Shown piece after piece: positions 48,877 through 63,983 of a stretch of 64,000 nucleotides of DNA. Position 1 is the first letter of the stretch, and each line of letters opens with the position of its first letter. Under the pieces are notes generated by a model, which worked only from the letters and a program-made list of their open reading frames with translations, did not search any database and was not told the DNA's origin. The stretch is taken from contig JARWSJ010000001.1 of NCBI GenBank assembly GCA_029906195.1, positions 868,001-932,000 of the forward strand, read 5' to 3'. The position numbers and the translations under genes were made by a program. This stretch comes from Chitinophagaceae bacterium 26-R-25 (GTDB lineage Bacteria > Bacteroidota > Bacteroidia > Chitinophagales > Chitinophagaceae).

Positions 48877-48879
48877 GTG

Positions 48880-49030: not shown

Positions 49031-49100
49031 GAGTAGTGGGTTATGAGTTTTGAGTACTAATAAAAATTTAGCGCAAAAGACTCATAACCCAACTTTCAAT
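49031..49100. repeat. Inverted heptad-repeat element B
   Basis: Left arm 49031-49058 is four 7-bp units (GAGTAGT, GGGTTAT, GAGTTTT, GAGTACT). The right arm 49080-49100 has inverted units (ACTCATA, ACCCAAC, TTTCAAT); ACTCATAACCC is an exact 11-nt reverse complement of the left arm. The right arm ends about 4 nt from the dapD stop codon. Confidence 0.7.
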
Positions 49101-49104
49101 TCTC

Positions 49105-49911
49105 TTACACTGCCACATTAAAGTCGCGCAAAGCATCATTCAAACTTGTTTTCAAGTCTGTGCTTGGTTTACGCTGACCAATGATCAGTGCGCAGCTTAC
49201 ATTATATTCGCCAGCTGGGAATTTTTTTGCATATGTACCAGGAATAACAACACTTCTTGCCGGTACGCGTCCTTTGTATTCGATCGGCTCAGCACCGCTT
49301 ACGTCAATGATCTTCGTGCTTTGCGTTAGTACTACGTTTGCACCCAATACTGCCTCTTTTTCTACACGAACACCTTCTACCACAATACATCTTGAACCCA
49401 CAAATACGCCGTCTTCGATGATTACAGGAGAAGCCTGCAATGGTTCCAACACTCCGCCAATACCTACACCACCACTAAGGTGAACGCCTTTGCCTATTTG
49501 AGCGCAGCTGCCCACAGTTGCCCATGTGTCAACCATTGTACCTTCGTCAACAAAAGCACCAATGTTTACGTAGCTAGGCATTAATACCACATTTTTGGCG
49601 ATGTAAGCGCCATATCTTGCCACAGCGTGGGGAACCGCACGTACGCCCAGTGAAGCATAGTCTTTCTTCAGTTCCATTTTATCATAAAACTCAAACGGAG
49701 GTAATGACATGGTTTTCATTTGCTGAATACCGAAGTACATCAGAATGGCTTGTTTCACCCATTCGTTCACTTCCCAGCCACTTTCTACGGGAGCAGCTAC
49801 TCTCAGTCTTCCTTTGTCCACTTCTTCAATCACCGCTCTTACGGCATCGGCATATTTCGCGTCTTTCAACAATTCGCGGTTTGCCCATGCTGATGTGATC
49901 AATTCTTTCAT
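49105..49911 (-). CDS. dapD: 2,3,4,5-tetrahydropyridine-2,6-dicarboxylate N-succinyltransferase
   Basis: A 268-residue enzyme of lysine and diaminopimelate synthesis, transferring succinyl from succinyl-CoA to tetrahydrodipicolinate in the cytoplasm. The N-terminal helical part carries RVAAPVESGWEVNEWVKQAIL. The middle is a left-handed beta-helix of hexapeptide repeats (VGSCAQIGKGVHLSGGVGIGGVLEP, VIIEDGVFVGSRCIVVEGV). The C-terminus has RVPARSVVIPGTYAKKFPAGEY. Length and motif order match DapD of Bacteroidota, implying the succinylase route to peptidoglycan DAP and lysine. It stands alone; inverted heptad elements flank both ends. Confidence 0.96.
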   Translation of the reverse strand: MKELITSAWANRELLKDAKYADAVRAVIEEVDKGRLRVAAPVESGWEVNEWVKQAILMYFGIQQMKTMSLPPFEFYDKMELKKDYASLGVRAVPHAVARYGAYIAKNVVLMPSYVNIGAFVDEGTMVDTWATVGSCAQIGKGVHLSGGVGIGGVLEPLQASPVIIEDGVFVGSRCIVVEGVRVEKEAVLGANVVLTQSTKIIDVSGAEPIEYKGRVPARSVVIPGTYAKKFPAGEYNVSCALIIGQRKPSTDLKTSLNDALRDFNVAV

Positions 49912-49948
49912 GCTTGAAAATTTTTTGCAAACATAAAGGAATAAGCAG

Positions 49949-50061
49949 TAAGTTTTGAGTTTTGAGTTATGAGTTTTGACTGCTAAGCGTTGAGTGTTGA
50001 AACATAGGTGAATTGTGTATTATAAAATGCAGCTTCCGACTCATCACTCAAAACTTGCCCG
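49949..50061. repeat. Inverted heptad-repeat element C
   Basis: Left arm 49949-49997 is seven 7-bp units of type TGAGTTT (TAAGTTT, TGAGTTT, TGAGTTA, TGAGTTT, TGACTGC, TAAGCGT, TGAGTGT). Right arm about 50038-50061 is three inverted units (read in reverse complement CAAGTTT, TGAGTGA, TGAGTCG). It lies between divergent genes, so it overlaps or adjoins both promoters. Confidence 0.85.
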
Positions 50062-50135
50062 GTAATGGTACAAATTTTACAGGCTGAAATAATGGCCACC
50101 GGGCCAGTCATCGTAACTTTAAAAAAAACTCATTT

Positions 50136-50735
50136 ATGATCACTGCACTAGACAAAAACACAGCCCTTGTGTTGATCGATCTCCAGAAAGGAACCTTGAA
50201 CGCTCAACTGGTCCATCCCGCGAAGGCTGTATTGGCAAACGCAGCAAAACTGCTGGACGCTTTTGGAAATGCAGGTCTGCCGGTTGTGATCGTGCATGTC
50301 AACCCTCTAGGTGCGCCGTGGACGAAAACACGAAAGCAGGTAAGTATGATTCCTGCAGATGCCGAAGGACAAAAAGCGGCAGAGGCAAAAATGCAGGAGG
50401 AGGGCTTCTTTACGATAGTGCCTGAAATTATGCTGCACCCGGGTGACTTGCTGGTTACCAAAAAAACATGGAACGCTTTCTACGAAACCGGGTTGCATGA
50501 CGAGCTGCAAAAAAGAAATGTTACCGGAATTGTACTGGGCGGAGTATCAACAAGCGTGGGTGTGGAAGGTACAGCCAGGGCAGCAAGTGAACTGGGATAT
50601 AATATTACATTGGCCTCCGATGCAACTACCGACAGATTAGCCTCTGCCTACGAACATAGCGTGAACACTATCTTTCCGCGGATCAGCGAAATAGATACTA
50701 CAGACGCGATCATCAAAATGTTGCATGAAAAATAA
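50136..50735 (+). CDS. Isochorismatase-family (cysteine-hydrolase fold) protein without the catalytic Cys
   Basis: A 199-residue Rossmann-like hydrolase. The conserved Asp15 (LVLIDLQKG) and Lys109 (LLVTKKTWNAF) are in place, but where amidase members have GVxTNxCVxxTAR this protein reads GGVSTSVGVEGTARAA, with Gly142 at the cysteine position. That excludes the nicotinamidase/N-carbamoylsarcosine amidase mechanism and is reminiscent of true isochorismatases, which also lack the cysteine. No siderophore or phenazine genes are nearby, so the substrate is open. It stands alone, divergent from dapD. Confidence 0.85.
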   Translation: MITALDKNTALVLIDLQKGTLNAQLVHPAKAVLANAAKLLDAFGNAGLPVVIVHVNPLGAPWTKTRKQVSMIPADAEGQKAAEAKMQEEGFFTIVPEIMLHPGDLLVTKKTWNAFYETGLHDELQKRNVTGIVLGGVSTSVGVEGTARAASELGYNITLASDATTDRLASAYEHSVNTIFPRISEIDTTDAIIKMLHEK

Positions 50736-50823
50736 ATGTCAGAAAGTTATTTATTATTATGCGGCATGACAAACGAATGTCGAAAACAATTATCTTGCTT
50801 GAAATAAGTTCATAACATTTTAT

Positions 50824-51255
50824 ATGGCATTACTAGAAGAACACTTGGTAGTAAAAAAATCAGGTTTACCCAACGCCGGTAAAGGTTTATACACCAGAAG
50901 GCCGATCCCCAAAGGCACCCGCATCGTAGAATACAAAGGCAAATTCACTACATGGAAGGAGGTTGATCATGATGAAGGTAGCAACGGTTATATATTTTTT
51001 GTAAACCGCAATCACGTGATCGATGCCCGTGAAACACCAGAAGAACTTGCACGCTATGCCAACGACGCAAAGGGGTTGCAACGTGTAAAGGGTATTAACA
51101 ATAACAGCGAGTATGAAAAACAGGGGAAAATGGTTTTTATAAAATCACTAAAAGATATTCCCGCCGGCAGCGAAATCTTCGTGTCCTACGGAAAAGAATA
51201 TTGGGACACCGTGAAGGAGAACTTGAAGATTGATAAGGTGAATGGGAAGAAGTAG
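50824..51255 (+). CDS. SET-domain protein (putative protein-lysine methyltransferase)
   Basis: A 143-residue protein consisting of a bare SET domain. The N-terminal SET motif is NAGKGLYTRRPIPKGTRIVEYKG (Gly-x-Gly region for SAM binding at GKGLY). A middle motif RYANDAKG takes the place of the eukaryotic RFxNHxC. The C-terminal motif is AGSEIFVSYGKEYW, with the active-site Tyr in SYGKEYW. Small SET proteins occur widely in Bacteroidota; their substrates are mostly unknown (ribosomal or DNA-binding proteins are candidates). The gene ends 2 nt before the arm of a heptad-repeat element. Confidence 0.88.
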   Translation: MALLEEHLVVKKSGLPNAGKGLYTRRPIPKGTRIVEYKGKFTTWKEVDHDEGSNGYIFFVNRNHVIDARETPEELARYANDAKGLQRVKGINNNSEYEKQGKMVFIKSLKDIPAGSEIFVSYGKEYWDTVKENLKIDKVNGKK

Positions 51256-51257
51256 GA

Positions 51258-51410
51258 GAATTAATAATTAATAATTAAGAATTAATAGGTGTAGCATAGT
51301 GATGGGAGAATACCGGATCATCTGCTATACAAGCAACAGGGCCGCATTCGCTCAAGAATGTGGCCCTGTTAATTACTAATTATTAATTATTAATTCCTAA
51401 TTCTTAATTG
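51258..51410. repeat. Inverted heptad-repeat element D
   Basis: Left arm 51258-51285 is four units (GAATTAA, TAATTAA, TAATTAA, GAATTAA). Right arm 51369-51410 is six inverted units (TTAATTA, CTAATTA, TTAATTA, TTAATTC, CTAATTC, TTAATTG). The left arm starts 2 nt after the SET stop and the right arm ends 2 nt before the ferritin stop; a separate hairpin sits in the middle. Confidence 0.9.
51335..51370. terminator. Central hairpin between convergent SET and ferritin genes
   Basis: A 15-bp stem with one wobble pair (AACAGGGCCGCATTC / GAATGTGGCCCTGTT) and a 6-nt loop. No long T-run follows, but the convergent position suits a bidirectional terminator. Confidence 0.65.
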
Positions 51411-51412
51411 CC

Positions 51413-51925
51413 CTACCGTTTCTTCCCCTCATTCCCTCTATGCAACATAATATCCCTGTCAAAAAGATAGATTCCGCCTTTGTCTTCGCCTACAAGAACC
51501 AGTTTGTCATTTAAGGTTCTGGCAAGATGTTCCTCTTCAATTTGTTCGTTCACGTACCACTGCAGAAAGTTGTGCGTGGCATAATCTCGTTCATTAAGCG
51601 CCATTCCCACCAGCTCGTTAATATTTTCCGATACAATGATCTCGTGTTTTAAAAATTCTTCGAACACCCGCTGAAGAGACAGGAAGGTAATGATCGGTTG
51701 TTCCAGAGCGGGAACGATCGCAAAACCACCACGTTCGTTAATGTAACGGATCAGCTTCAGCATGTGCATGCGCTCTTCATCGGATTGCGTATAAAAAAAG
51801 TTTGTAACACCGTCAAGCCCCGGCTGGATCTCCGCCCAGCTGGCCATTGCCAGGTATGCCTGTGAGCTTTCGGCTTCGAGTTGTACCTGCCTGTTTAGGG
51901 CCTCTTGCATCGTTTTTGATAGCAT
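51413..51925 (-). CDS. Ferritin (non-haem, FtnA-like)
   Basis: A 170-residue four-helix-bundle iron-storage protein. Ferroxidase-centre residues are visible: Glu in LEAESSQAYLAMASWAE on helix A, EERMHMLKLI (ExxH) on helix B, and Glu/Gln in NEQIEEEHLARTLNDKL on helix C/D. Helix E-type sequence ends GIYLFDRDI. Length is normal for prokaryotic ferritin. It oxidises Fe(II) and stores ferric mineral in the cytoplasm. It is a single gene, convergent with the SET gene. Confidence 0.95.
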   Translation of the reverse strand: MLSKTMQEALNRQVQLEAESSQAYLAMASWAEIQPGLDGVTNFFYTQSDEERMHMLKLIRYINERGGFAIVPALEQPIITFLSLQRVFEEFLKHEIIVSENINELVGMALNERDYATHNFLQWYVNEQIEEEHLARTLNDKLVLVGEDKGGIYLFDRDIMLHRGNEGKKR

Positions 51926-52068
51926 GGGTTAATTTTTTACAAACAATATAATGAATTGTACGCTTTTTAGAGTCGTGATATTCCTTAATCTTTTTTGGAA
52001 AAAACACAAGAAACGGTGAACTGTTCAGGAAGTTTTTTGTTACAGTCAAATATGTAATAAACACGCTT

Positions 52069-52197
52069 ATGGATTCCAATCAAGACTTTCCTGAGAAATT
52101 CGTACCACGCGGCGCTGTTGCCTTCTTTTCATTGCTTGTCGCCCTGGGCCTCATCATCTGGTTTACTATATATTTTATCATGCTTTACCGCAGCTAA
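52069..52197 (+). CDS. Cytochrome c oxidase subunit IIa (ba3 type), 42 residues
   Basis: A 42-residue single-helix membrane protein reading MDSNQDFPEKFVPRGAVAFF followed by a hydrophobic helix (SLLVALGLIIWFTIYFIML) and YRS. The GAxAFF...W pattern and position directly before subunit II (11 nt) match the small subunit IIa of Thermus-type ba3 oxidases, which completes the missing helix of subunit II. It is easily missed because it is so short. It is the first gene of the oxidase operon. Confidence 0.85.
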   Translation: MDSNQDFPEKFVPRGAVAFFSLLVALGLIIWFTIYFIMLYRS

Positions 52198-52208
52198 AAC
52201 AATTTACT

Positions 52209-52661
52209 ATGCTGGATAAATTCGAAAGAACAGTAATAGGAGTGGCGCTGCTGGTGTCCGCGCTATTTATATTTTGCCTTTTCTATGCCATGGGGGCAAA
52301 AAAAGGGAACGTTACCGAATGCCTTCCTTACGATAAATCGTACGAAGATGCGCGGGTGAGCCAGGTAGATAAAAATACATACCAGGTTTTTTACGTTGCC
52401 CGCATGTGGAACTTCGAACCTTCTGTTGTTTACATCCCCGTAGGCAGCGAGGTTGATTTTTTTGTAACATCAAAAGATGTGGTGCATGGTTTTGACATTT
52501 CCGAAAAAAATGTAAACCTGATGGGCGTACAGGGTGCTGTGGCAAAAACAACGGTAAAGTTTGACAAACCCGGCGTGTACAAAGTCACCTGCCACGAATT
52601 CTGCGGCACGGGCCACCAGAACATGCAGGCGGAAGTAATCGTTAACTATCCTTCAAAATAA
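52209..52661 (+). CDS. Cytochrome c oxidase subunit II, ba3 type (CuA)
   Basis: A 150-residue subunit with one N-terminal membrane helix (about 10-30) and a periplasmic cupredoxin domain binding the binuclear CuA centre. Ligands are His93 (DVVHGFDI), Cys128, Glu130, Cys132 and His136 (TCHEFCGTGHQNM), with Met139. The single helix instead of two, and the short length, are typical of ba3 oxidases, where subunit IIa supplies the other helix. It receives electrons from cytochrome c; the last operon gene encodes a candidate donor. It is 7 nt before subunit I. Confidence 0.96.
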   Translation: MLDKFERTVIGVALLVSALFIFCLFYAMGAKKGNVTECLPYDKSYEDARVSQVDKNTYQVFYVARMWNFEPSVVYIPVGSEVDFFVTSKDVVHGFDISEKNVNLMGVQGAVAKTTVKFDKPGVYKVTCHEFCGTGHQNMQAEVIVNYPSK

Positions 52662-52668
52662 CCATAAC

Positions 52669-54357
52669 ATGCACCTAAGTAAACCGATAAGAAATATTAT
52701 TCTCATAGAGCTTTTTGTACCTGTATTGCTACTGACCATCGGCATTTATCACGGCCTGATGCAGGTTATTTACAGGGCAGGGGTTATCCACCAATCGTCA
52801 TTTGCAAAGCTTGATTATTACCAGGGCCTCACGCTGCATGGAGTGATCAATGCAATTGTACTCACCACATTTTTTGCAGTAGCATTTGGCCATGCCACCA
52901 TTGCTTTTCATTTAAAAAAAGAACCCAACTATAGAGCATCCATGCTTTCGGTTTGCCTGATGGTGGGCGGAACTTTGATGGCCGCGTGGGCCATGTTGAT
53001 GGGCAAGGCTTCTGTGCTGTATACGTTTTATGCACCGCTAAAAGCACATCCACTCTTTTACCTTGGAACAGCATTGCTGATCGTGGGCTCATGGGTAGCA
53101 TTCTTCGACTGGGTAACCATTTATTCAAAATGGAAAAAAGACAATAGCGAAGTAAATACGCCGCTGGCGGTTTTGGGAACGCTTGTCAATTTCACCATAT
53201 GGTTCGTTTGTACATTGGCTGTAGCGTATGAAGTACTCGTGCTGCTGATCCCCTGGTCGATGGGATGGACGCCAACTGTAAATGTTTCGCTCACAAGAAC
53301 ATTGTTCTGGTTCTTTGGCCACGCACTGGTGTATTTCTGGTTGCTGCCGGCCTATATCATGTTCTATACGATTTTACCAAAGTTAGCCGGAGGCAAATTA
53401 TACTCTGAGCTTGCCGGTCGCATTGCATTCTTCCTCTTCCTGTTGTTGTCAATTCCTATTGGTGTGCACCACCAGTTCGGAGATCCCGCAATTGGCAGAG
53501 GCATTAAACTCACACAATCCATTCTCACATTTGGCGTAGCCGTTCCCAGTTTTATTACAGCGTTTACCATTGCCGCCTCACTTGAATATGCAGGCAGGAA
53601 AAGAGGCGCAAAAGGTTTGTGGAACTGGGTTTGGAAACTGCCCTTCTTCGATAAAAATGTTTACCTCTTTGGCTATCTTATCAACGGATTGATACTGTTT
53701 ATATTCGGAGGATTAACAGGCCTTGTGAATGCTTCTTATTCGCTTAATAATGTTATTCACAACACTGCATGGGTGCCAGGACATTTTCACCTAACCGTTG
53801 CCGGACCTGTGTTCCTGGCAATATTGGGCATGTCCATTTTCATGACTTCTCAACTTACCGGCAAGAAAATTTTTCTGCCAAAGATCAACACCATTGTTCC
53901 TTATCTGTGGACAGTGGGCGTGCTGATCTTCTCTACAGGACTCATGTGGGGTGGTCTATTGGGTGAGCCACGCAGAACAAATCTCGGTCTTACCTATCTC
54001 AATCCAGAGAGTGAGTTATACAATCCATACTGGGTAATTACAACCATGCTCGGTCTTGCAGGAGGCGGCATTATGTTCGCCGCGGGCCTGCTATATTTCA
54101 TTGTTTTCTTTGGCACTTTTTTGAGTAAACGTACTGCCGAGCCGGTGATTGATTTTCCCATCAGCGAAGTGTACCATACGGAAAAACGTGTTCCCATTTT
54201 CGATACTTTCCGCCCGTGGCTCGTTGCTATGGGGGTCATACTATTTATGGCATATGTACCGGCCATTATGGATACGCTGAACAACAATGGTAAAAAGGCG
54301 CCGCCCTATTTGCCAACGGACCCGGCACCGGTAATATCAACGATTGAAAAGAAATGA
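52669..54357 (+). CDS. Cytochrome c oxidase subunit I, ba3 type
   Basis: A 562-residue haem-copper oxidase core, reducing O2 to water with proton pumping. Visible ligands: His57 (GLTLHGVINA) and His374 for the low-spin haem; His218 with cross-linked Tyr222 (FFGHALVYFW), His267 and His268 (VHHQFGD) for CuB; His372 (VPGHFHLTVAGP) for the high-spin haem. The GHxxVYF spacing (His-Tyr four apart) and about 13 helices put it in the B (ba3) family, usually high-affinity. It overlaps the SCO gene by 4 nt. Confidence 0.96.
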   Translation: MHLSKPIRNIILIELFVPVLLLTIGIYHGLMQVIYRAGVIHQSSFAKLDYYQGLTLHGVINAIVLTTFFAVAFGHATIAFHLKKEPNYRASMLSVCLMVGGTLMAAWAMLMGKASVLYTFYAPLKAHPLFYLGTALLIVGSWVAFFDWVTIYSKWKKDNSEVNTPLAVLGTLVNFTIWFVCTLAVAYEVLVLLIPWSMGWTPTVNVSLTRTLFWFFGHALVYFWLLPAYIMFYTILPKLAGGKLYSELAGRIAFFLFLLLSIPIGVHHQFGDPAIGRGIKLTQSILTFGVAVPSFITAFTIAASLEYAGRKRGAKGLWNWVWKLPFFDKNVYLFGYLINGLILFIFGGLTGLVNASYSLNNVIHNTAWVPGHFHLTVAGPVFLAILGMSIFMTSQLTGKKIFLPKINTIVPYLWTVGVLIFSTGLMWGGLLGEPRRTNLGLTYLNPESELYNPYWVITTMLGLAGGGIMFAAGLLYFIVFFGTFLSKRTAEPVIDFPISEVYHTEKRVPIFDTFRPWLVAMGVILFMAYVPAIMDTLNNNGKKAPPYLPTDPAPVISTIEKK

Positions 54358-55007
54358 ATAAGTTTTACCGGTACATATTAACTTCATGGAAAGCCTTTGT
54401 GGTACTTATTTTGGTGCTGCCATTACTTGCTTATACCGTTGTGAACTGGTTGGAAAATAAATACAGCCCGCTGCCATACAAGGGCATCGATGATAATTGG
54501 GTGAGCAAAAAAAATGCTGTGGTACTAATGCCGTTTTCATTTATCGATCAACAACACAAAGTATATAGCTCTGCCGTCATAAAAGGAAAGATCATGGTGG
54601 CGAATTTCTTTTTTTCATCATGTCCAACCATATGTCCTGATATGTTCAGGCACATCAAAAAAGTGAGTAAAGCATACGCCAATGCCAATGATATAAAGTT
54701 CGTTTCTTTTACCGTCGATCCTGAGCACGACACGCCGGAAAGACTGGATGCCTACGGCAAATTAAACGATATCGATCCCGGGCAGTGGAAGTTGTTGACG
54801 GGAGAGAAAAAGGATCTGTATCGCCTTGCACGAAAGGGTTTCTACATCACAGCCACAGAAGGGGATGGAGGGCCGGAAGATTTTATTCACAGTGATAGAT
54901 TGGTGTTGGTCGATAAAGAAGAATTCATTCGTGGTTACTATGATGGAACGTCTGATAAAGACATTCAATTACTGATTAACGATATTAAAAAGCTGCAAAA
55001 TGATTAA
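54354..55007 (+). CDS. SCO1/SenC-family copper chaperone
   Basis: A 217-residue membrane-anchored thioredoxin-fold protein that delivers copper to, or reduces, the CuA site of subunit II. An N-terminal helix (about 12-31) anchors it. The copper motif is C90-P-T-I-C94 in SSCPTICPDM, with the third ligand His179 (EDFIHSDRLVLVD). It starts within the end of the subunit I gene (ATGA overlap) and its stop overlaps the next start, so translation is coupled. Confidence 0.95.
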   Translation: MNKFYRYILTSWKAFVVLILVLPLLAYTVVNWLENKYSPLPYKGIDDNWVSKKNAVVLMPFSFIDQQHKVYSSAVIKGKIMVANFFFSSCPTICPDMFRHIKKVSKAYANANDIKFVSFTVDPEHDTPERLDAYGKLNDIDPGQWKLLTGEKKDLYRLARKGFYITATEGDGGPEDFIHSDRLVLVDKEEFIRGYYDGTSDKDIQLLINDIKKLQND

Positions 55008-55569
55008 AGCTTCAAAGTATTTCACAGGCAAATATTTTGCAATACTACCGGTGATGGTTACGTGTTTTATATTATTTGCAAGGCAAAATTCCATCGCTCA
55101 AAATATAAGTGCAGATGAAGGCAAAAAACTCTTCCAGGGTCGCTGTGCATCCTGCCATAATGTGAACAAAACTTTAACCGGACCGGCACTCGCAAAAGTG
55201 GATGAACGCCACACTATGCCGTGGATTATCAGCTTTGTAAAAGGTTCCCAGGCCATGGTGAAAAGCGGGGATAAAGAGGCGCTGGATGTGTTTAACAAAC
55301 ACAACCAGATCGTTATGCCCGACCATCCGGATCTAAGTAACAGCCAGATAGAAAGCATTGTGGCGTACATAAAAACAGAAGCAAAAAATCCGGTAGCCGA
55401 TGCGGCTCCTTTTGCCCGCCCGGGTAAAAAAGTGCCGCAAAGAATGCCCTTATCCATTTATAATTACCCCTTTATGATCGGCTATGTGGCACTGATTCTT
55501 TTAATGATCGGAGTCTTAATTTCACTTGTGAATATTAAAAGTTACGAAAGTCATGTGCATCCTGAATAA
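55000..55569 (+). CDS. Membrane-anchored cytochrome c of the ba3 oxidase operon
   Basis: A 189-residue monohaem cytochrome c. The signal segment ends near QNSIAQN; haem binding is C49-A-S-C52-H53 (GRCASCHNVNKTLTGPAL), with a likely Met ligand in QIVMPDHPDLS. A C-terminal helix (about 155-178, FMIGYVALILLMIGVLISLV) anchors it in the membrane, so it is tethered at both ends or after cleavage at the C-terminus. It is probably the electron donor to CuA. It overlaps the SCO gene by 8 nt. Confidence 0.93.
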   Translation: MIKASKYFTGKYFAILPVMVTCFILFARQNSIAQNISADEGKKLFQGRCASCHNVNKTLTGPALAKVDERHTMPWIISFVKGSQAMVKSGDKEALDVFNKHNQIVMPDHPDLSNSQIESIVAYIKTEAKNPVADAAPFARPGKKVPQRMPLSIYNYPFMIGYVALILLMIGVLISLVNIKSYESHVHPE

Positions 55570-55747
55570 CATTTATTAACTTAGTACAACCTATTGTTAA
55601 ACCGGCCTGTTTAACCAAATTATCACATTTTAGTTTTTAGATTTACATACAACATTTACACTAACGATTAGCCGGCTATAGTCTCCTGTTTTATTTACCC
55701 GTACTGCATTGGAAACACTATTCTTTGAATGTGAAAAATAATACACT

Positions 55748-56140: not shown

Positions 56141-56193
56141 TCATTTGTAAATATTTTAATACTTATTAGACATTAAACCTTTCCAACTTATAG

Positions 56194-56223
56194 AGCATAT
56201 CCTTTTTCCGGGTATGCTTTTTT
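56194..56223 (+). terminator. Intrinsic terminator
   Basis: Stem AGCATATCC / GGGTATGCT (one G-T pair), 7-nt loop, then six T residues; 53 nt after the hypothetical gene. Confidence 0.8.
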
Positions 56224-56422
56224 ATGTGCCTTTGTGACATATTGATTTGGGGTGGGTAATGTGTTTTCGGAAATGTGTAAAATACCCACGGTAAAAATAT
56301 TGTCGTAACTAAACAATAACATTTACACGAAATGTCGTTTTTTTGCGCGATCATTACATGATTTGAGTCTTTTCTATTGATTTTTATTGCCTACCGGAGG
56401 ATAAAATTAGAATACAAGTGTT

Positions 56423-56436: not shown

Positions 56437-56539
56437 AAAATTGTATTTTGTAGCAGCTTCAAGTTTCCTAGTACAAAAACCAGATTTTTCGCTTTATCCA
56501 GGTCCTGTGTGTCCCTATTAATGCTATAAAATTTTTGGT

Positions 56540-58870
56540 ATGAGGAAACTATACATCTTACTTCTATGCTTACTTACCACATTACATTCCTCAACGCTGC
56601 TGGCCGCTAATATCACGTGGACAGGAAGCACTGGTGGAGGCTGGAGCGATCCGTCTAACTGGTCAACTGCAACTGTTCCGGGGGCTGGTGACAACGTGAC
56701 GTTTAATAGCAGTGTGACTGTGACAATGGATGACCTCTCCATTGATGTTGCGTCCCTGAAGGTGACAGGCAACAGCAATGTAATTTTTACTTCCGCAGGA
56801 ATCACCGACTTCACTGTTTCGGCTGCTACAAATGCTTTGGCGATAGACAATGGTTCATCGCTTAAGACGTTTACCAGCGGGATTGGCGACAATGGTCTTC
56901 ACGTGATTCTTGAGACCGGCTCTTCGGGTGTGGTCAATGGAACCTTTACAATGGAAGCTAACATTGATCCTTATCCAGGTTGGGGATCAAGTTTGACAAT
57001 GAATACTGGTTCAACACTGGCGGTGAACGGTACCTTGACAATGAATCCCCATGCAGGGATTATCGAGTCTACAACTTCCAGTTTGTTTTTTAATACAGGC
57101 GCCAACTATATTCATAACATGGATGCAGGAAAAATTCCCACTGCTACCTGGGATGCTACTTCTACTTTGCAGCTGACTGGGCTGGTGTACAATGTGCCGG
57201 ATTTTGGAAGCGCTGCGTTGTCGCTGGGAAATGTAATTATAAACACGCCCAATGTGTCGAATCTTTTTCAACCACAATTCTCTTTGAATTTGCCCACCTC
57301 GACAACCATAAAAGGGAATTTCAGCATCGTTAATTTCCACAATCTTCCACTGGTTTTACTTACCAATGTCGGTACCGACGTGTCAGTAACGGTAAATAAG
57401 AATTTTATCCTTAGCACCAACTCTACGGTGCATTTGGGATTCGCTAATTTCTCTTCCGAAACTAACAATTATACGCTGCAGATAAATGGTGACTATGTAC
57501 AGTCTAATGGTTCTTTTTCTATCCAGGGTGATGATTTTGTAACAGGCATAACTACCCTTGGTATCGGGGGAAATTTTAATCAAACAGGTGGAACATTTGG
57601 TGCAGCAAGTGGTGCAACAAGTGCTTCAGATAATTTATTTGTGGTGGAAATGAATGGTAATGCGGCTCAAACTTTCTCGTCCATCACCGGCACCATCGAC
57701 AATGCTGACAGCATGGTGGCATTGCGCATTAATAATACTTCAGGTGGCGTAAGTTTGTCGACTCCTCTACGTGTGGGACGGCTTGATTTGCAATCAGGTG
57801 TTCTTACAACCACCGTTTCAAATTCGCTCACCGTTAACAGCACAAATAATACGCAGGGTGTAACCAATGGCTCTTCTGGTAGTTACGTTGCAGGGCCGGT
57901 TACAAGAAGAACAAATTCGACTTCTGCCTACTTGTTCCCAACCGGACAGAACGGTTTCTACAGACCTATTGAGATTATTCCAAACTCAGCAGCGCCTTCT
58001 ACCTATACGGCAACTTATTTCAGAGCTGCAAACGGTTCTCCTGTTGCTAATCCACTTACAAAAATTGCAAATACCGGATACTGGGCCGTGGGAAGAATCT
58101 CCGGCAGTGATGCTGTTGTGCAGCTTTCTCTGAGTGGCGAGGCAGTTCCCGGCTCTGCGGCTAACAGCGTGTTGGTGGTTGCCGGTTACAATGGCACACA
58201 ATGGACAAGTTTGTTGGGTGCAAACGGTACATCCATCTCTCCGGGTAATGCTGTAAATGGAACAGCAAAATCTGACATACAGAGCACTTTCAACCTGTTT
58301 ACATTCGGTGTTGTCGGCGGTGACCCGTTGCCAATCCTATTGCTTGAATTCACCGCTACAAAATCCGGCTCATCTGCAAACCTGAAATGGAAAGTAGATC
58401 CTGTGGATATACCTCGAACAGTCGAAATCCTGAAGTCCAACAACGGTCGCGACTTTGCGAAAGTAGGCACTGTTGCAGGTGTTGACAACGTTACTACTTA
58501 CAGCTATACAGATCCTTTAAGCGAAGGCAACAATTACTATCGTTTGCGCATGATCGATAAAGATGGTTCTGTAGTTTACAGTAAGGTGGCTGCAATTATT
58601 AACCAGGCAAATGGATTCGCGATCACCGGTTTTGCTCCAACACTGGTTACAAGATCTGTGAAATTGAATGTCAGCGCTGGTTCTGGCGGTACAATGGATC
58701 TGTACATCACTGATATGTCGGGAAAAATATGGCGCAAATTAGGCGTTCAACTTTCTACCGGCAATAACGAACAGCAAATTGATCTGTCTGATCTAAGTGC
58801 CGGTGTGTACCAGGTGTTCGGTTATATGAACGGCGAGAAGACAGGTGTGATAAGGTTTGTGAAGCAATAG
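56540..58870 (+). CDS. Secreted G8-like beta-helix protein with type IX sorting domain
   Basis: A 776-residue surface protein. Signal peptide to about residue 22 (STLLAANI). The N-terminal region (WTGSTGGGWSDPSNWSTATVPGAGDNVTF) is the same type of module as in the 314-residue secreted protein at 30886, followed by a long Ser/Thr/Asn-rich beta-helical region (to about 590) with repeated short strands. The end has the pre-sorting module (LPILLLEFTATKSGSSANLKW, YYRLRMIDKDGSVVYSKV) and a sorting domain ending GVIRFVKQ. It should be exported by the type IX system and fixed at the surface. No catalytic motif is visible. An FNR-type box lies upstream. Confidence 0.85.
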   Translation: MRKLYILLLCLLTTLHSSTLLAANITWTGSTGGGWSDPSNWSTATVPGAGDNVTFNSSVTVTMDDLSIDVASLKVTGNSNVIFTSAGITDFTVSAATNALAIDNGSSLKTFTSGIGDNGLHVILETGSSGVVNGTFTMEANIDPYPGWGSSLTMNTGSTLAVNGTLTMNPHAGIIESTTSSLFFNTGANYIHNMDAGKIPTATWDATSTLQLTGLVYNVPDFGSAALSLGNVIINTPNVSNLFQPQFSLNLPTSTTIKGNFSIVNFHNLPLVLLTNVGTDVSVTVNKNFILSTNSTVHLGFANFSSETNNYTLQINGDYVQSNGSFSIQGDDFVTGITTLGIGGNFNQTGGTFGAASGATSASDNLFVVEMNGNAAQTFSSITGTIDNADSMVALRINNTSGGVSLSTPLRVGRLDLQSGVLTTTVSNSLTVNSTNNTQGVTNGSSGSYVAGPVTRRTNSTSAYLFPTGQNGFYRPIEIIPNSAAPSTYTATYFRAANGSPVANPLTKIANTGYWAVGRISGSDAVVQLSLSGEAVPGSAANSVLVVAGYNGTQWTSLLGANGTSISPGNAVNGTAKSDIQSTFNLFTFGVVGGDPLPILLLEFTATKSGSSANLKWKVDPVDIPRTVEILKSNNGRDFAKVGTVAGVDNVTTYSYTDPLSEGNNYYRLRMIDKDGSVVYSKVAAIINQANGFAITGFAPTLVTRSVKLNVSAGSGGTMDLYITDMSGKIWRKLGVQLSTGNNEQQIDLSDLSAGVYQVFGYMNGEKTGVIRFVKQ

Positions 58871-58872
58871 GG

Positions 58873-59001
58873 AAGTCGAAAGTCAAAAGTTAAAAGTAAA
58901 AAACACAGTCACTCCATCTTCGATTGGAGATCTAATAAAATCAAAAAGGGAGTTCGATAAATATCGGGCTCCCTTTTTTACTTTTTACTTTTGAATTTTA
59001 A
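58873..59001. repeat. Inverted heptad-repeat element J (with second right arm to 59123)
   Basis: Left arm 58873-58900 is four units (AAGTCGA, AAGTCAA, AAGTTAA, AAGTAAA), starting 2 nt after a stop codon. Right arm 58975-59001 has inverted units (TTTTTAC, TTTTTAC, TTTTGAA, TTTTAAA). A further arm of four units (TTTTGAA, TTTTTAC, TTTTGAA, TTTTGAA) at 59096-59123 abuts the mqnE stop. Terminators lie between. Confidence 0.8.
58943..58979 (+). terminator. Intrinsic terminator of the secreted-protein gene
   Basis: A long stem (AAAAGGGAG / CTCCCTTTT with an inner CGAT/ATCG) followed by a T-run, 72 nt after the stop. Confidence 0.85.
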
Positions 59002-59064
59002 AGGTCATGAAGCTTAACTACAAGTAAGAAATTTGCACACCAACAAATCACCATGACTCACAAT

Positions 59065-59099
59065 AAAAAAGAGCTCGACATTTATCGAGCTCCCTTTTT
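59065..59099. terminator. Bidirectional intrinsic terminator of mqnE and the convergent gene
   Basis: GAGCTCGA / TCGAGCTC stem (59071-59092) with T-runs on both strands, between convergent genes and 25 nt from the mqnE stop. Confidence 0.85.
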
Positions 59100-59123
59100 G
59101 AATTTTTACTTTTGAATTTTGAA

Positions 59124-60308
59124 TTAGTTCAACAGCGGATTCACTTCAATCTCTTTCAAGTCAATATCAGAATAATCCCTGATCTCGTTGTACAAAGTAT
59201 CTCTTTCAACAGGTTGACGTTTTACCTGTTTGATCAATGCCACCATTTCAGCGGTGCTCATTACAGGCGTTTGTTCTTCGCTTCCTGCCATTGAGTAGAT
59301 CTTTGTAGAATCGTCGATGGTGCCGTCGATATCATTCACACCAAAGGCAAGCGTCAATTGGGCGTTTTTGCGGCCCAGCATTGGCCAGTAAGCCTTCAGG
59401 TGAGGGAAGTTGTCCATGTATAACCTGGCAATCGCGTAAAGCCTCATGTCCTCTGTTACTGAGCTTTCCGGTACATTGCTCATGTCATTTTGTTTGTTGC
59501 GGAATTTCAGCGGAATGAATGTATTGAATCCCCCTGTTTTGTCCTGCAGGCTGCGCAATCTTTCCATATGATCAATGCGGTGATTGAACTTTTCGATATG
59601 ACCATACAACATCGTGGCATTTGAATGCATGCCCAGCTTGTGTGCCGCTTCATGAATAGCCAGCCAGCCAGCCGCGTCCACTTTGTCCTCACAGATCTGT
59701 GTGCGGATTTCAGGGGCGAAGATCTCCGCACCACCTCCCGGCAATGATTGCAAACCCGCTTCGTGCAGGAATTTCATGCCTTCCTCTATCGTCATTTTTG
59801 CCTTGCGGAACATGTAGTCAAGTTCTACCGCTGTAAAACCCTTTACGTGCAGGTCCGGGCGATGCGCCTTGATTTTTTGCAGAAGATCTGCGAAGAAATT
59901 AAGATTCAGTTTCGGGTGAACGCCGCCAACGATGTGCACTTCCGTAACCGGTTTACCATCGTATTTTTTAACGATGTTCAGCATGTCATCAGTGGTCAGT
60001 TCCCAGCCTTCTTCCCGATGTGCATACAAGCGTGAGTAGGAGCAGAACTTGCATGAAAACACGCAAACATTCGTGGGCTCAATATGAAAGTTGCGATTGA
60101 AATATGTTTTGTTGCCATGAAGTCTTTCGCGAACATGATTCGCCAAAGCACCTACAAAAGGGAGGCTCCCTTTTTCAAAAAGTAAAACGCCTTCTTCCTC
60201 TGTTATTCTTTCTTTATGGATAATTTTCTCGCCAATGCTTCGAAGTGCTTTCTCTTTTTCTGCTTCTATGATCTTTTCTATAGAAATTGTTGAGTCTGTA
60301 ATAATCAT
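59124..60308 (-). CDS. mqnE: Aminofutalosine synthase
   Basis: A 394-residue radical SAM enzyme of the futalosine pathway to menaquinone, adding an adenosyl unit to the product of MqnA. The cluster motif is C82-V-F-S-C86-K-F-C89, preceded by FNRNFHIEPTNVC. Downstream motifs include EVHIVGGVHPKLNLNFFADL, LPGGGAEIF, and near the C-terminus LTLAFGVNDIDGTIDDS, which fit MqnE rather than MqnC. It implies a menaquinone-based respiratory chain made without the classical Men enzymes; no other mqn gene is in the window. It stands alone. Confidence 0.93.
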   Translation of the reverse strand: MIITDSTISIEKIIEAEKEKALRSIGEKIIHKERITEEEGVLLFEKGSLPFVGALANHVRERLHGNKTYFNRNFHIEPTNVCVFSCKFCSYSRLYAHREEGWELTTDDMLNIVKKYDGKPVTEVHIVGGVHPKLNLNFFADLLQKIKAHRPDLHVKGFTAVELDYMFRKAKMTIEEGMKFLHEAGLQSLPGGGAEIFAPEIRTQICEDKVDAAGWLAIHEAAHKLGMHSNATMLYGHIEKFNHRIDHMERLRSLQDKTGGFNTFIPLKFRNKQNDMSNVPESSVTEDMRLYAIARLYMDNFPHLKAYWPMLGRKNAQLTLAFGVNDIDGTIDDSTKIYSMAGSEEQTPVMSTAEMVALIKQVKRQPVERDTLYNEIRDYSDIDLKEIEVNPLLN

Positions 60309-60371
60309 CTTGTAAAGCTTTTTCTGGGGCGAAATTACGGGATTTAAGTGAATGGTGGCAGGTAGGTTATG

Positions 60372-60470
60372 GTAGCCAGTGGCCAGATGCCGGTAGCCGG
60401 GCTTGGAGGCGCGTCAAACTTTTGATAATAGCATATAAGGACTGGCTACCGGAAACCGGCTACTGGCTGC
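60372..60470. repeat. Inverted heptad-repeat element E
   Basis: Left arm 60372-60399 is four units (GTAGCCA, GTGGCCA, GATGCCG, GTAGCCG). Right arm 60443-60470 is four inverted units (TGGCTAC, CGGAAAC, CGGCTAC, TGGCTGC). It is GC rich, unlike the other elements, and lies between divergent genes. Confidence 0.88.
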
Positions 60471-60536
60471 GATCTTCTTTTTTGCCATTTCCCATTATTT
60501 ACTATCTTGACCCCTTTATTCTATCAATCTGCATAC

Positions 60537-61799
60537 ATGAGTATTAAGTTCCGCCTCACAATAATGAGTTTCTTTCAATTTTTTGTTTGGGGTTCATGGC
60601 TCATCACCATCGGTAATTACTGGTTCAGCACAAAGGGATGGGATGGGGCAAAATTTGGAGTTATTTTTTCCACAATGGGAATAGCTTCGTTGTTTATGCC
60701 CGCACTGATGGGAATGGTGGCGGATCGATGGGTAAATGCTGAAAAACTGTACGGTTTCCTGCATATTTTAAGTGGCGTGTCTCTGTGTCTGATCCCGCAG
60801 ATCAATGATCCTTCGCAGTTTTTCTGGGGCATTTTACTGGCGATGATATTTTATATGCCCACCATCGCACTTGCGAATTCCATAGCATATACCGGGTTAA
60901 AAAATAATAGGTTTGATGTTGTGATCGATTTCCCGCCAATCAGGGTTTTCGGCACCATTGGCTTTATCGCGGCGATGTGGACCACTAATCTTAGCGGTAA
61001 TAAAGCTTCTGCCAATCAGTTTTATATTGCGGCAATTGCATCATTTATATTGGGGCTGTATTCTTTTACATTGCCGCCTTGTCCGCCGTTAGGCAAGCAA
61101 ACCGGTAACAAGAGCTGGAGCCAGGTATTGGGTTTTGACGCCCTTCACTTATTTAAAGATAAGAAGATGGCGCTGTTCTTTATTTTTTCAATGTTCTTAG
61201 GTGCCGCGTTGCAACTGACGAATGCTTATGGCGACGTTTTTCTCGGTGAGTTTAGTAAAGTACCCGAATACGCGAATTCGTTTGTAGTGAAGCGCTCAAC
61301 TATTATCATGTCCATCTCACAATTTTCTGAAACAGCTTTCATTCTTGCTATTCCATTTTTCTTAAGGCGTTTCGGTATTAAGAATGTGATGCTCATAAGT
61401 ATGCTGGCATGGGTTTTCAGGTTCGGACTGTTTGCATACGGTGATCCTTCTCCAGTGGGAGTAAGCCTTATTATTTTGTCATGCATCGTATATGGAATGG
61501 CGTTCGATTTCTTCAATGTATCCGGTTCACTGTTTGTGGAAACCTCTACTACGCCTGATATCAGGTCGAGTGCGCAGGGGATATTCATGATGATGACGAA
61601 TGGTGTTGGCGCTGTTGCCGGAAGTACTATAAGCGGGTTCATCATACAAGAATTCTACACCGCAGCAGACGGAAGAACAAAGGACTGGCATGGCATCTGG
61701 CTGGCATTCGCGATCTACGCCTTAATTGTTTCGATTTTGTTCGCCGTATTTTTCAAACATAAACACGTGGTGAGTGAAGTAGTGGCAGTGAAACACTAG
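60537..61799 (+). CDS. Nucleoside permease (NupG/MFS family)
   Basis: A 420-residue, roughly 12-helix inner-membrane transporter. The start at 60537 (MSIKFRLTIMSFFQFFVWGSW) is preferred over an upstream in-frame TTG. The N-terminal WGSWLITIGNYW, GIASLFMPALMGMVADRW and FPPIRVFGTIGFIAAMW phrases are typical of the nucleoside:H+ symporter group of the major facilitator superfamily. It should import nucleosides. It ends 3 nt before a heptad-repeat arm, with a terminator 32 nt further on. Confidence 0.92.
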   Translation: MSIKFRLTIMSFFQFFVWGSWLITIGNYWFSTKGWDGAKFGVIFSTMGIASLFMPALMGMVADRWVNAEKLYGFLHILSGVSLCLIPQINDPSQFFWGILLAMIFYMPTIALANSIAYTGLKNNRFDVVIDFPPIRVFGTIGFIAAMWTTNLSGNKASANQFYIAAIASFILGLYSFTLPPCPPLGKQTGNKSWSQVLGFDALHLFKDKKMALFFIFSMFLGAALQLTNAYGDVFLGEFSKVPEYANSFVVKRSTIIMSISQFSETAFILAIPFFLRRFGIKNVMLISMLAWVFRFGLFAYGDPSPVGVSLIILSCIVYGMAFDFFNVSGSLFVETSTTPDIRSSAQGIFMMMTNGVGAVAGSTISGFIIQEFYTAADGRTKDWHGIWLAFAIYALIVSILFAVFFKHKHVVSEVVAVKH

Positions 61800-61801
61800 A
61801 G

Positions 61802-61938
61802 GAATTAATAATTAATAAGTAATAATTAATAGGGAGTCATTCGTTTATTCGATGACTCCCTATTTTTTTGATTAGTCATGAGCGACGACTACGATTTCGG
61901 ATAAGCCCTATTAATTCTTAATTGTTAATTATTAATTC
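61802..61938. repeat. Inverted heptad-repeat element F
   Basis: Left arm 61802-61829 is GAATTAA, TAATTAA, TAAGTAA, TAATTAA. Right arm 61911-61938 is TTAATTC, TTAATTG, TTAATTA, TTAATTC. The left arm starts 2 nt after the permease stop. It uses nearly the same unit as element D, 10 kb away, but with a different spacer. Confidence 0.9.
61831..61869 (+). terminator. Intrinsic terminator of the nucleoside permease gene
   Basis: Stem AGGGAGTCA / TGACTCCCT followed by A and seven T residues, inside the spacer of element F. Confidence 0.9.
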
Positions 61939-62226
61939 TTCTCCTTTAGCAAACTGAATTCCTCATCGTATGCTCCAAAGTACAGATAAAGAAATCAAGT
62001 CGCAGGAGATGCTGGCTCTCTTTGTTGACAAGGGTTTGGCATGATAAATTGATTTTGTTAAAATCAATCAGGCAACATTAAGTTAACTACTCATTAATAC
62101 AGAGTGGTACAAGGATTGATAAATTTGCAGAGGCAAAAACGAAATGACCTCTTGTAAATATTTAAGTCCAGGTAAGTGTCAGACTTGCTTTATTAAATGA
62201 ATGTCTGATAACGCCTGGCACCAATT

Positions 62227-62346
62227 TAATTAGGAGTTAGGAATTAGGAATTAGGAACTTTAATGAAGTTAAACTGACGGGAATTGGGCAAAAAGACAGG
62301 CAAGCAGCGGACAAAGAATTCCTAATTTCTAATTCCTAATTCCTGA
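62227..62346. repeat. Inverted heptad-repeat element G
   Basis: Left arm 62227-62254 is TAATTAG, GAGTTAG, GAATTAG, GAATTAG. Right arm 62319-62346 is TTCCTAA, TTTCTAA, TTCCTAA, TTCCTGA. It lies directly before the methyltransferase gene, the right arm ending 37 nt before its start codon. Confidence 0.9.
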
Positions 62347-62383
62347 TTTCTTCCATAGTTTGTTGCCTTCTAAAACCTTCTGC

Positions 62384-63259
62384 ATGAAATCGACCGCTGC
62401 CAGTAAAACCGCGCAATACATGGCTTTGTTCAGGGCGCTGGAAACCAGGCGACCAAAGAACAAGCGACTCTTTACAGATTCATTTGCTGTTTCTTTTCTT
62501 GACAAAAATTTACAGCTTGCGACAAAGTTGACGGCATTGCCTTTTGGCGAGAAACTCGTTCAAAGAATTATCTACAAGAGAATTCCGGGTGCGTTTTCTT
62601 CTGGCATTGCCCGCACAAAATATATTGATGACCTGTTGGAGAAGTCCGTAAAAGCAGGAGTGAAGCAGGTTATTATTTTAGGTGCAGGGTTTGATACCAG
62701 GGCATTACGCTTGCCATTTTTGCAAAATGTTCCTGTCATAGAAATTGATCATCCAAACACCAGCCGCATAAAGATGAATAAGGTGAAAGAGCGGTTGGGA
62801 AAATTACCTTCACATGTTCGCTATTTCCAGATTGACTTTAACCGGCAAAGTATTCATGAACTGACTGCCCAACAAAATATTGATTTCGCTGTACCAACGA
62901 CGATCATCTGGGAAGGGGTGACCAATTATTTATCCGCTGAAGCTGTCGATACTACTTTCGCTTTTGTAAAAAAGTTTGCCGCTGGTTCCTACATCATTTT
63001 TACTTACGTTCACAAGGAGGTGTTGGATAAACCTTCAAGTTTTTATGGAGCAGAAAAATTGTTAAGTGATCTGGATGCGTTGGAAGAGAAATGGACCTTT
63101 GGTTTTTATCCCCGGGAACTACAAAACTATCTTTCTCAATTTAACATACAACTTCTTGAAGACGCCGGCGCCGCTGAATACCGCTCAAAGTACATGCCTG
63201 AGAGAAATGAAAAAGGGTACGAGTTTTATAGAGTGGCGTTTGGGAGAATGACTGAATAA
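62384..63259 (+). CDS. Class I SAM-dependent methyltransferase (leucine carboxymethyltransferase-like)
   Basis: A 291-residue enzyme of the PPM1/LCMT-like family common in bacteria. The N-terminal AQYMALFRALETRRP and GIARTKYIDDLLEKSV precede the SAM-binding motif VIILGAGFDTRALRL, then VIEIDHPNTSRIKMNK and IIWEGVTNYLSAEAV (motif IV). The start at 62384 is chosen over an upstream TTG as it begins right at the conserved part. The substrate is unknown; family members methylate small carboxylates or natural products. The last codons and stop lie inside the first units of repeat element H. Confidence 0.88.
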   Translation: MKSTAASKTAQYMALFRALETRRPKNKRLFTDSFAVSFLDKNLQLATKLTALPFGEKLVQRIIYKRIPGAFSSGIARTKYIDDLLEKSVKAGVKQVIILGAGFDTRALRLPFLQNVPVIEIDHPNTSRIKMNKVKERLGKLPSHVRYFQIDFNRQSIHELTAQQNIDFAVPTTIIWEGVTNYLSAEAVDTTFAFVKKFAAGSYIIFTYVHKEVLDKPSSFYGAEKLLSDLDALEEKWTFGFYPRELQNYLSQFNIQLLEDAGAAEYRSKYMPERNEKGYEFYRVAFGRMTE

Positions 63260-63397
63260 CTGAGTAACTGAATAACTGAGTAACTGAATAACTGAATAAC
63301 TGAATGACTGAGTAATCGACTTTAAATACCTTGAATAATTGAAATACAGATGAATGACACATAATCAAGTTCAGTTATTCAGTTACTCAGTTATTTA
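63247..63397. repeat. Inverted octad-repeat element H
   Basis: The left arm (63251-63320) is about eight 8-bp units of type ACTGAATA/ACTGAGTA. The right arm (about 63369-63397) is inverted units (TTCAGTTA, TTCAGTTA, CTCAGTTA). The first unit contains the stop codon of the methyltransferase gene. The 50-nt spacer (63312-63360 region, with ATCGACTTTAAATACCTTGA) recurs in element I. Confidence 0.9.
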
Positions 63398-63401
63398 AAA
63401 T

Positions 63402-63433
63402 AAAAGAAGCCATTCGTTAGAACAGCTTCTTTT
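63402..63433 (+). terminator. Intrinsic terminator after element H
   Basis: Stem AAAAGAAGC / GCTTCTTTT with a 14-nt loop; the T-run is within the stem. Likely ends the methyltransferase transcript. Confidence 0.75.
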
Positions 63434-63810
63434 AAGAATTTAGGTAATATAGTAAAGTTAAATTAATCTTCGTACTGCTAGGATCGGATATATTACCTGA
63501 TTTTCAACAAGGATGTGTGGATGTTCATTTCATAAAAAAGGTTGTAACGGTGGTTTTTTTCATTTGGATCGGACTCGGTTTTTTGGACTAATGGACTATT
63601 GGTTTTTGATCGTTTGGATATTGTAATTTGACAATGCAAATATGTTTAAACTTTCGATGCAGTGTTCGATTTGTGTATTACGTCTTTGTTAACTAAGGAG
63701 AAGGTTTGAATATGCCTAACCGTAATGTATGTGTTAAATTAGTTATTTAATCGGTACAAGCAAACTTTATTAAAGAAAATTATTATGTTATAAGTGTAAA
63801 CACTTAGGAA
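63434..63810. other. Non-coding stretch between elements H and I
   Basis: About 375 AT-rich bases with no supported gene. Short direct echoes such as TTGGACTAATGGACTATTGG occur near 63584. Nothing further is recognised. Confidence 0.5.
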
Positions 63811-63983
63811 AATGACTGAATAAATGAATAACTGAGTAACTGAATAACTGAATAATTGAATAATTGAATAACTGAATGACTGAGTAATCGACTTTGAATA
63901 CCTTGAATAATTGAAATACAGATGAATGACAAATATTCAAGTTCAGTTATTCAGTTACTCAGTTACTCAGTTAGTCAGTCATT
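63811..63983. repeat. Inverted octad-repeat element I (second copy of H)
   Basis: It begins AATGACTGA and ends TCAGTCATT, perfect terminal inverted repeats. The left arm is about nine 8-bp units of type ACTGAATA; the right arm is five inverted units. The spacer (ATCGACTTTGAATACCTTGA and onward) is nearly identical to that of element H. Confidence 0.92.

Follow-up and report, generated by a model that had tools for sequence, protein, structure and literature searches.

The 64,000-nucleotide stretch analysed here (positions 868,001 to 932,000 of contig JARWSJ010000001.1, hereafter the window) belongs to contig C1 of Chitinophagaceae bacterium 26-R-25 (G000), whose 6.5-Mb genome is in six contigs. 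The closest relatives of a DapD-like protein encoded in the window are in Chitinophagaceae. At ten sites between its genes lies an element of one plan: an array of short tandem units, a spacer, and an array of the same unit in inverse orientation. These sites had been listed in a preliminary description of the window, and their inverted arms are real. Six were recovered by a strict detector (period-p arrays with a score of at least 10, inverted arms no more than 150 bp apart, periods 5-12 in the window), at 51259, 58873, 61803 and 62230 with period 7 and at 63246 and 63817 with period 8. At the remaining four (11314, 49031, 49949, 60372) inverted arms are visible by eye, one arm of each being weak, with only about 2-4 degenerate units. 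No inverted pair was detected in the window at other periods, and there is a single direct pair, of period 7. Coordinates above 64000 given below are offsets along C1 counted from the start of the window.

Over 464 kb of G000, inverted pairs number 32 at period 7, 24 at period 8 and 5 at period 9 (61 in total), with some rows overlapping at one locus (e.g., L131), so that loci are fewer than rows. Nine further pairs have period 14, a harmonic of 7, and the remaining periods from 4 to 15 gave none. Direct pairs in the same sequence amount to 3, 4, 0 and 1 at periods 7, 8, 9 and 14. Three dinucleotide shuffles, a control that the preliminary description had proposed, returned no pairs, inverted or direct. 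Chance and base composition are ruled out by the shuffles, the direct pairs and the reversed-pattern controls given below, of which the one for AATTANN is not clean. Many of the 140 period-7 arrays in the 464 kb are without a partner by the strict detector. At periods 7-9, two congeners, G001 and G002 (88.7% and 86.3% aligned identity to G000 in the syntenic stretch), contain 16 pairs in 100 kb and 9 pairs in 160 kb, respectively. One pair was found in 80 kb of G006 and none in 60 kb of G019, and 80 Bacteroidota loci around relatives of the DapD-like protein (1.34 Mb) yielded three pairs.

A looser, merged set (score of at least 9, gap of up to 170) comprises 83 elements in 804 kb, or 12% of the genome, which when scaled up gives an estimated several hundred sites. 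The elements are almost always intergenic, in line with the preliminary description, and only 4 of the 83 centres fall inside a called open reading frame (ORF). Besides the 7- and 8-bp units reported earlier there are 9-bp families, and the spacers, which had been put at about 20-100 bp, reach about 168 bp.

The preliminary description held that the unit differs by site and that only the architecture is common to the sites. Several units do occur, but two sites (listed there as 51258 and 61802) share AATTAAT and two others (63247 and 63811) share ACTGAATA. The second part of the claim fails: the units fall into dispersed families, about ten as counted by eye, several with fixed and sharply bounded arms. 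The unit is 7, 8 or, in one family, 9 bp, and recurring units are AATTAAT/AATTAGG/AATTAAG, AATTGAA, AGTTGTT/AGTTGAG, AAGTCAA/AAAGTAA, AATTTGAA, AATAACTG, GATTNTCAT and others. In the best-sampled families the arms are about 30-37 bp long, or roughly four 7- or 8-bp units, with fixed inverted ends. The AATTGAA arm reads AATTGAAAATTGAAAGTTGAAAATTGAAAATG; its odd third unit is kept, and conservation is at background immediately outside (20 pooled arms). Outer edges are similarly sharp for AATTTGAA (27 arms), AATTAAT (30 arms) and AATTAAG (34 arms), and softer for AATTAGG (11 arms) and AATAACTG (34 arms). Because the GATT profile was aligned on the outer end of the family itself, its edge is no independent test. 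Polarity is uniform: the left arm is forward in 81 of the 83 elements and reverse in none, with 2 unclassified. Uniform arrays produced by slippage are ruled out for the main families by their fixed non-uniform arms and sharp edges.

Spread was assessed by pattern searches over 147 genomes of the family, each with a reversed-pattern control. A 22-mer pattern for AATTGAA has 679, 289 and 241 matches in G000, G001 and G002, overlapping within arms, against 0, 0 and 1 for the reversed control. It is present in 9 of the 147 genomes, six of them outside the genus. The AATTTGAA pattern is present in 22 genomes (reversed control 0), and the GATT pattern in the three congeners only. For the TGAGTT unit present at 49031 and 49949, a 20-mer pattern gave 19 matches in G000 and none in the reversed control. 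In one genome of another genus (G071), loci L220-L227 carry an identical 31-bp AATTGAA arm together with heptamer arrays of ACCTGAT, ATAGCTG and CGTACTT.

Position relative to genes was determined on ORF-based calls (555 genes in the 804 kb), which are crude and less certain for starts than for stops. Elements are densest in convergent gaps, at 1.5 per kb of gap, against 0.72 in tandem and 0.54 in divergent gaps (22, 43 and 14 elements, respectively). Taking every gap together, 45 of the 89 arms that face a stop codon come within 5 bp of it. Random placement in these gaps would by itself yield 41%, since many of them barely exceed the element in length. Only gaps with 60 bp or more of slack carry weight for placement at stop codons, and here 16 of 37 stop-facing arms are within 5 bp of the stop (expected 6.5%), as opposed to 2 of 55 start-facing arms within 5 bp of the start. 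An element lies within 60 bp of the stop of 78 of the 555 genes, and 7 of the 555 have elements of the same family on both sides. The stop codons beside arms are more often TAG (31/67, with 27 TAA and 9 TGA) than those elsewhere in the G000 sample (127/488, with 270 TAA and 91 TGA).

Orthologous sites were sorted into class A (family unchanged, spacer matching), B (family the same or similar, spacer without a match), C (other family), D (other arrays) and F (other sequence). These classes are loose, since "same family" allows two mismatches and pools, for example, TAGTTGT with AAAAAGT, and class A is generous, including 63817 in G001 despite a spacer that looks unrelated by eye. From G000 to G001, 30 of 42 elements were mapped (A 10, spacer only 1, B 14, C 2, D 2, F 1, empty 0), and to G002, 23 of 42 (A 9, inverted spacer 1, B 7, C 1, D 1, F 3, empty 1); the 12 and 19 unmapped elements are left out of the class counts. 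Starting from G001, 24 of 37 were mapped to G000 (A 10, B 9, C 3, D 2) and 21 to G002 (A 12, B 4, C 2, D 1, F 1, empty 1). Starting from G002, 18 of 24 were mapped to G000 (A 5, inverted 1, B 8, C 1, D 2, empty 1) and 19 to G001 (A 12, B 2, C 2, D 2, empty 1). Thus 19 of the 30 G000 elements mapped in G001 are without a matching spacer there, although a failed match may reflect a homolog too diverged for detection.

Clear swaps include those at 62230, 81846, 117178, 118864, 159884, 162182, 172357 and 214192. In the window, the site at 62230 is occupied in G001 by an AATTAAT element whose spacer has no match, the GTAGCCA site at 60371 by a CACTAAG-type element, and that at 63817 by 8-bp arms around an apparently different spacer (by eye). 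The spacer of 51259 stands inverted in G002, and at 61803 the family is kept and the spacer matches in both congeners. Nesting is seen at L121:4807 and L131:7672, where GATT elements lie inside AATTGAA arms, and at the G001 counterpart of G000 159209 a GATT element stands beside one leftover AATTGAA arm. In two of the three G002 cases of other sequence, arms that repeat about every 10 bp can be made out by eye. At the positions in G001 and G002 corresponding to G000 offsets 104780 and 175973, and near 100-340 in L208-L210, the inverted elements are longer: their arms repeat about every 9-10 bp (CTGATxxxx), and nested CGCAAAGG-type repeats are present.

Persistence of the sites was controlled by sorting G000 gaps of 40-500 bp into those with an element, with arrays only, and without arrays. 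The G001 counterparts contain arrays in 21/22, 23/30 and 3/39 cases (strict pairs 14, 6 and 0), and the G002 counterparts, with a weaker contrast, in 13/17, 13/26 and 7/27 cases (strict pairs 8, 4 and 2). Addresses persist and their contents change. About ten unrelated end sequences are built on one plan in one genus, at sites that outlast their occupants. Since the address is separable from the tenant, it can be tested whether it is a landing zone, a functional slot at the 3' end or a fragile site behind the stop codon.

With middling confidence, we favour the reading that these are non-autonomous dispersed elements, similar to REPINs or to miniature inverted-repeat transposable elements (MITEs), which turn over in place behind stop codons. 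We infer transposition, and an order of insertion and loss, as follows. An enzyme acting in trans would recognise the ends and insert copies, as for MITEs or REPINs; the elements would occupy lasting addresses, in many cases directly abutting a stop codon, and be harmless there. Newcomers might mostly enter existing elements, the old arms then being lost; alternatively, arms might recombine, which could also invert a spacer. The address would stay and the tenant change. In favour of this reading are the sharp outer edges of the best-sampled arms, the dispersed pattern matches with reversed controls at or near zero, the single polarity, the recurrence of AATTGAA and AATTTGAA arms in other genera, the nested elements, and the persistence of sites whose contents change. 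Two sites also differ by presence, and the empty calls come down to these: 102859 (full in G000 and G001, 7 bp in G002) and G002 126431 (full in G002, 27 bp in G000 and G001).

Several observations weigh against this reading. No clear sharp edge is seen for AGTTGTT (25 arms) or AAGTCAA (54 arms). The spread of AATTANN beyond the genus is not clean: its looser pattern is present in 30 of the 147 genomes, but the reversed control also matches, with 425 forward against 77 reversed matches in G000 and near parity in some other genera. New sites in a congener are seldom seen compared with change in place (strict pairs in 0/39 array-free gaps for G001 and 2/27 for G002), which free transposition does not predict. 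Neither of the two near-empty sites has a visible target duplication, and each case of presence and absence may reflect either gain or loss. No partner transposase with the same ends was found in a search covering Y1 genes. The spacers of AATTGAA elements, some of which contain a terminator-like hairpin or an entire GATT element, are mostly unrelated among themselves, unlike those of a normal MITE. Finally, in 31 ortholog comparisons with matching spacers, the left and right arms are 90.5% and 94.2% identical (92.3% together), the spacers 80.7% and the 60-bp flanks 88.4%. That arms are more conserved than flanks suggests constraint or homogenisation, although the arms were selected as periodic and the comparisons, from three species pairs with overlapping sites, are not independent. 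Individual matching spacers range from about 77 to 95% identity.

MITEs are short, non-coding elements with inverted ends, nested insertions, a conserved interior and target duplication. Terminal inverted repeats with sharp ends are present in the AATTGAA, AATTTGAA, AATTAAT and AATTAAG families, and nesting is likewise MITE-like, as are sites occupied in one species but nearly empty in another. The interior differs, being unconserved in AATTGAA and only distantly alike in AATTTGAA and AATAACTG (about 60-85% over part or all of the length, sometimes in opposite orientation). No target duplication is visible at the two near-empty sites, and no partner transposase was found among the Y1 genes searched. 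REPINs, as characterised in the available portion of PMC3116915, share conserved inverted ends with a less conserved spacer, as in the identities above, as well as a predicted hairpin, intergenic position and several groups per genome. Here the ends are periodic, in contrast to REPINs, and each of the two Y1 genes examined as a candidate cognate REP-associated tyrosine transposase (RAYT) adjoins palindromes of another kind. The columns outside the arm are near background in AATTGAA, AATTTGAA, AATTAAT and AATTAAG, with no constant GTAG-type tetranucleotide.

A possible though less probable alternative is that the elements are functional and under selection at 3' ends, each forming a long hairpin directly behind the stop, often around an intrinsic terminator, that would protect or end transcripts. 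Between convergent genes such a hairpin would serve both directions, and its sequence would be interchangeable, so that tenants change and the site stays. Placement at stops, the roughly two-fold density in convergent gaps, site persistence and the higher conservation of arms than of spacers all agree with this, as do terminator-like hairpins seen by eye inside 51259, 58873, 61803 and 159209. Against it, divergent gaps, which have no stop codon, contain 14 of the 79 gap-located elements, and there are 22 elements for 79 convergent gaps, most of which contain no strict element. Such selection on a hairpin at the 3' end does not conflict with turnover of dispersed elements and may be a reason for the lasting addresses.

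The preliminary description read the elements as born locally, slippage making the units and template switching copying an arm inversely, which we consider improbable. Both arms of a site do share a unit, as it stated, and within-site arm match exceeds between-site match in two groups with 7-bp units (0.802 against 0.479, n = 32, and 0.857 against 0.727, n = 18; reached in 0 of 5000 permutations for each), although the first group pools AATTGAA, AAGTCAA and similar units and this subfamily structure inflates the contrast. AATAACTG has a similar excess (p 0.004, n = 13), and the spacer inversion at 51259 is also in keeping with local birth. The excess is missing for AATTTGAA (p 0.12, n = 10) and GATT (p 0.53, n = 8). 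Purely local copying does not predict a common non-uniform arm at many sites, single polarity or sharp edges, and the occurrence of two arm sequences in other genera together with the single polarity makes it unlikely.

Equally improbable is that the arms are arrays bound in pairs by a DNA-binding or nucleoid protein, as has been proposed for Geobacter metallireducens. The architecture itself is not new, since opposite-strand paired tandem-repeat sites are already in print in the accessible text of PMC2700814. There, "global regulator binding sites" of classes 1-3 (24, 21 and 8 pairs) consist of 3-5 tandem 8- or 7-mers (GTTGCTYN, TCTCCGTS[Y], MTYCTGA) in opposite-strand pairs at variable distance, with several classes per genome, and a global regulator or IHF/HU is suggested to bind them (PMC2700814). 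These pairs contrast in number with the 83 merged elements in 12% of the G000 genome, and stop placement and replacement of tenants are not described in the part of that paper available, where the sites are proposed as protein-binding (PMC2700814). The conservation of arms over spacers would suit bound arrays. About ten unrelated units per genome would require as many proteins, or none that is specific, and replacement of one family by another at single sites argues in the same direction.

The Geobacter sites are also a nearer parallel than the short tandemly repeated repetitive (STRR) sequences of cyanobacteria to which the elements were first compared (PMC2700814, accessible text). TAACTGA repeats of Beggiatoaceae, Cyanobacteria and Bacteroidetes are likewise intergenic tandem heptamers, but they are direct, with one inverted case in 170 sets, and in the main genome treated in the accessible text they mostly precede start codons (PMC4679880). 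The elements described here, which at period 7 form 32 inverted pairs and 3 direct ones, are not direct heptamers without an inverted partner. STRR and LSSR repeats are intergenic tandem heptamers. The literature searches did not return the number of families per genome, the stop placement or the pattern of stable address and changing tenant; six of the repeat sequences searched as text led to no paper, and no mobiliser or writer of the arms was found in the literature searched.

Very doubtful is a REPIN-RAYT system in which Y1 transposases of the subclass 2.6 type in the genus would have the arms as their REP ends. In that subclass, Bacteroidetes Y1 genes have atypical flanking secondary structures that are copied elsewhere in the genome (PMC6006769, accessible text). 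The palindromes beside the Y1 genes here differ from the tandem arms. The link, suggested by the Y1 neighbourhoods, was rejected on the flanks of homologs and on hairpins formed by other palindromes. Two Y1 genes, whose proteins read NHVH and YIHNNP / YLHQNP, adjoin elements or single arms: the first stands near two full AATTTGAA pairs in G001 and near partial arms in G002, and the stop of the second is followed by a GATT arm in each of the three species, with a full pair only in G000. Such adjacency is not rare, given the 7 and 78 genes of 555 noted above. A homolog of the first gene (E <= 0.001) is present in 96 of the 147 genomes, and these include every one of the 22 that carry the AATTTGAA pattern (hypergeometric 3e-5), a co-occurrence uncorrected for kinship, genome size and the several patterns tried. 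The only G000 match to the first gene is the second gene, at 41% identity. Inverted pairs with a GCGCAGATATGC-like core adjoin the first gene itself, and by eye its homologs in G149, G074 and G011 are accompanied by similar ones; the palindromes adjacent to the second gene are CTGCAAGGCT-type hairpins. Neither gene is flanked by identical element ends in the manner of a RAYT gene. AATTTGAA arms are found at 0 of 28 loci of first-gene homologs outside the genus, including 8 genomes with the pattern elsewhere, and the 30 loci of second-gene homologs (one being that of G000) have no constant arm family, with heptamer arrays present in L255, L277, L279 and L283. This lowers the case for REPINs of these particular RAYTs and leaves untouched the case for REPIN-like behaviour.

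Least probable, and in our view highly unlikely, is that the arms are written and not transposed. A templated polymerase, of a reverse-transcriptase or telomerase-like kind, would add one 30-37-nt sequence in the 5'->3' direction to each of the two 3' ends at a break behind the stop, and the ends would then be rejoined around filler or pre-existing DNA. A single step of this kind would yield single polarity, equal arms per site, arms of fixed length built of non-uniform units, unrelated spacers and renewal at a fragile address from another template.

The Y1 loci have repeats of their own. At L211, L212, L294, L295 and L305 (in G001, G002, G149, G074 and G011, respectively) a Y1 gene is accompanied by a REPIN-like inverted pair with the GCGCAGATATGC-like core (by eye), and a protein search found no close copy of the L211-type protein in G000. 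At L208-L210 the second Y1 gene lies beside hairpins of the CTGCAAGGCT..AGCCTTGCAG type, on both sides in L209 and L210 and as one perfect hairpin in L208; few copies of this type occur in the sampled 804 kb.

Inverted-arm elements and related arms in the window (positions from the first nucleotide of the window; TRF, Tandem Repeats Finder)
Feature	Position	Basis and remarks
CGTTAAG-type element	11314..11434	Degenerate left arm about 11314-11342 (by eye); right arm 11385-11434 (TRF)
Weak TGAGTTA-unit element	49030..49090	11-bp perfect arms GGGTTATGAGT / ACTCATAACCC, by eye; missed by strict detector
TGAGTTT element	49949..50056	Left arm 49949-49979 (TRF); short right arm about 50038-50056 (by eye)
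AATTAAT element	51259..51409	Strict detector; fills gap between two convergent stops
AAGTCAA element	58873..58999	Strict detector; surrounds terminator-like hairpin (by eye)
Single extra AAGTCAA-type arm	59096..59125	TRF and sequence; at stop codon of next, convergent gene
GTAGCCA element	60371..60470	Arms about 60371-60400 and 60442-60470, by eye
AATTAAT element	61803..61937	Strict detector; 3 bp behind stop codon; terminator-like hairpin inside (by eye)
AATTAGG element	62230..62348	Strict detector
8-bp ACTGAATA element	63246..63393	TRF and strict detector; overlaps ORF end
8-bp ACTGAATA element	63817..63979	Strict detector; spacer 95% identical to 63246 spacer

Among Rfam models, only a tRNA exceeded the gathering score in the window, and the elements have no match. 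The site at 49031, which is essentially an 11-bp perfect inverted repeat, is adjoined by a tRNA-Leu (CAG) gene at 48879-48961. CACTAAGG- and GTCATTGCGAGG-like repeats are common among environmental bacteria, and in the G001 ortholog of the site at 63246 the spacer contains a GTCATTGCGAGG...GAGATTGCTTCG...CGCAATGACG repeat.

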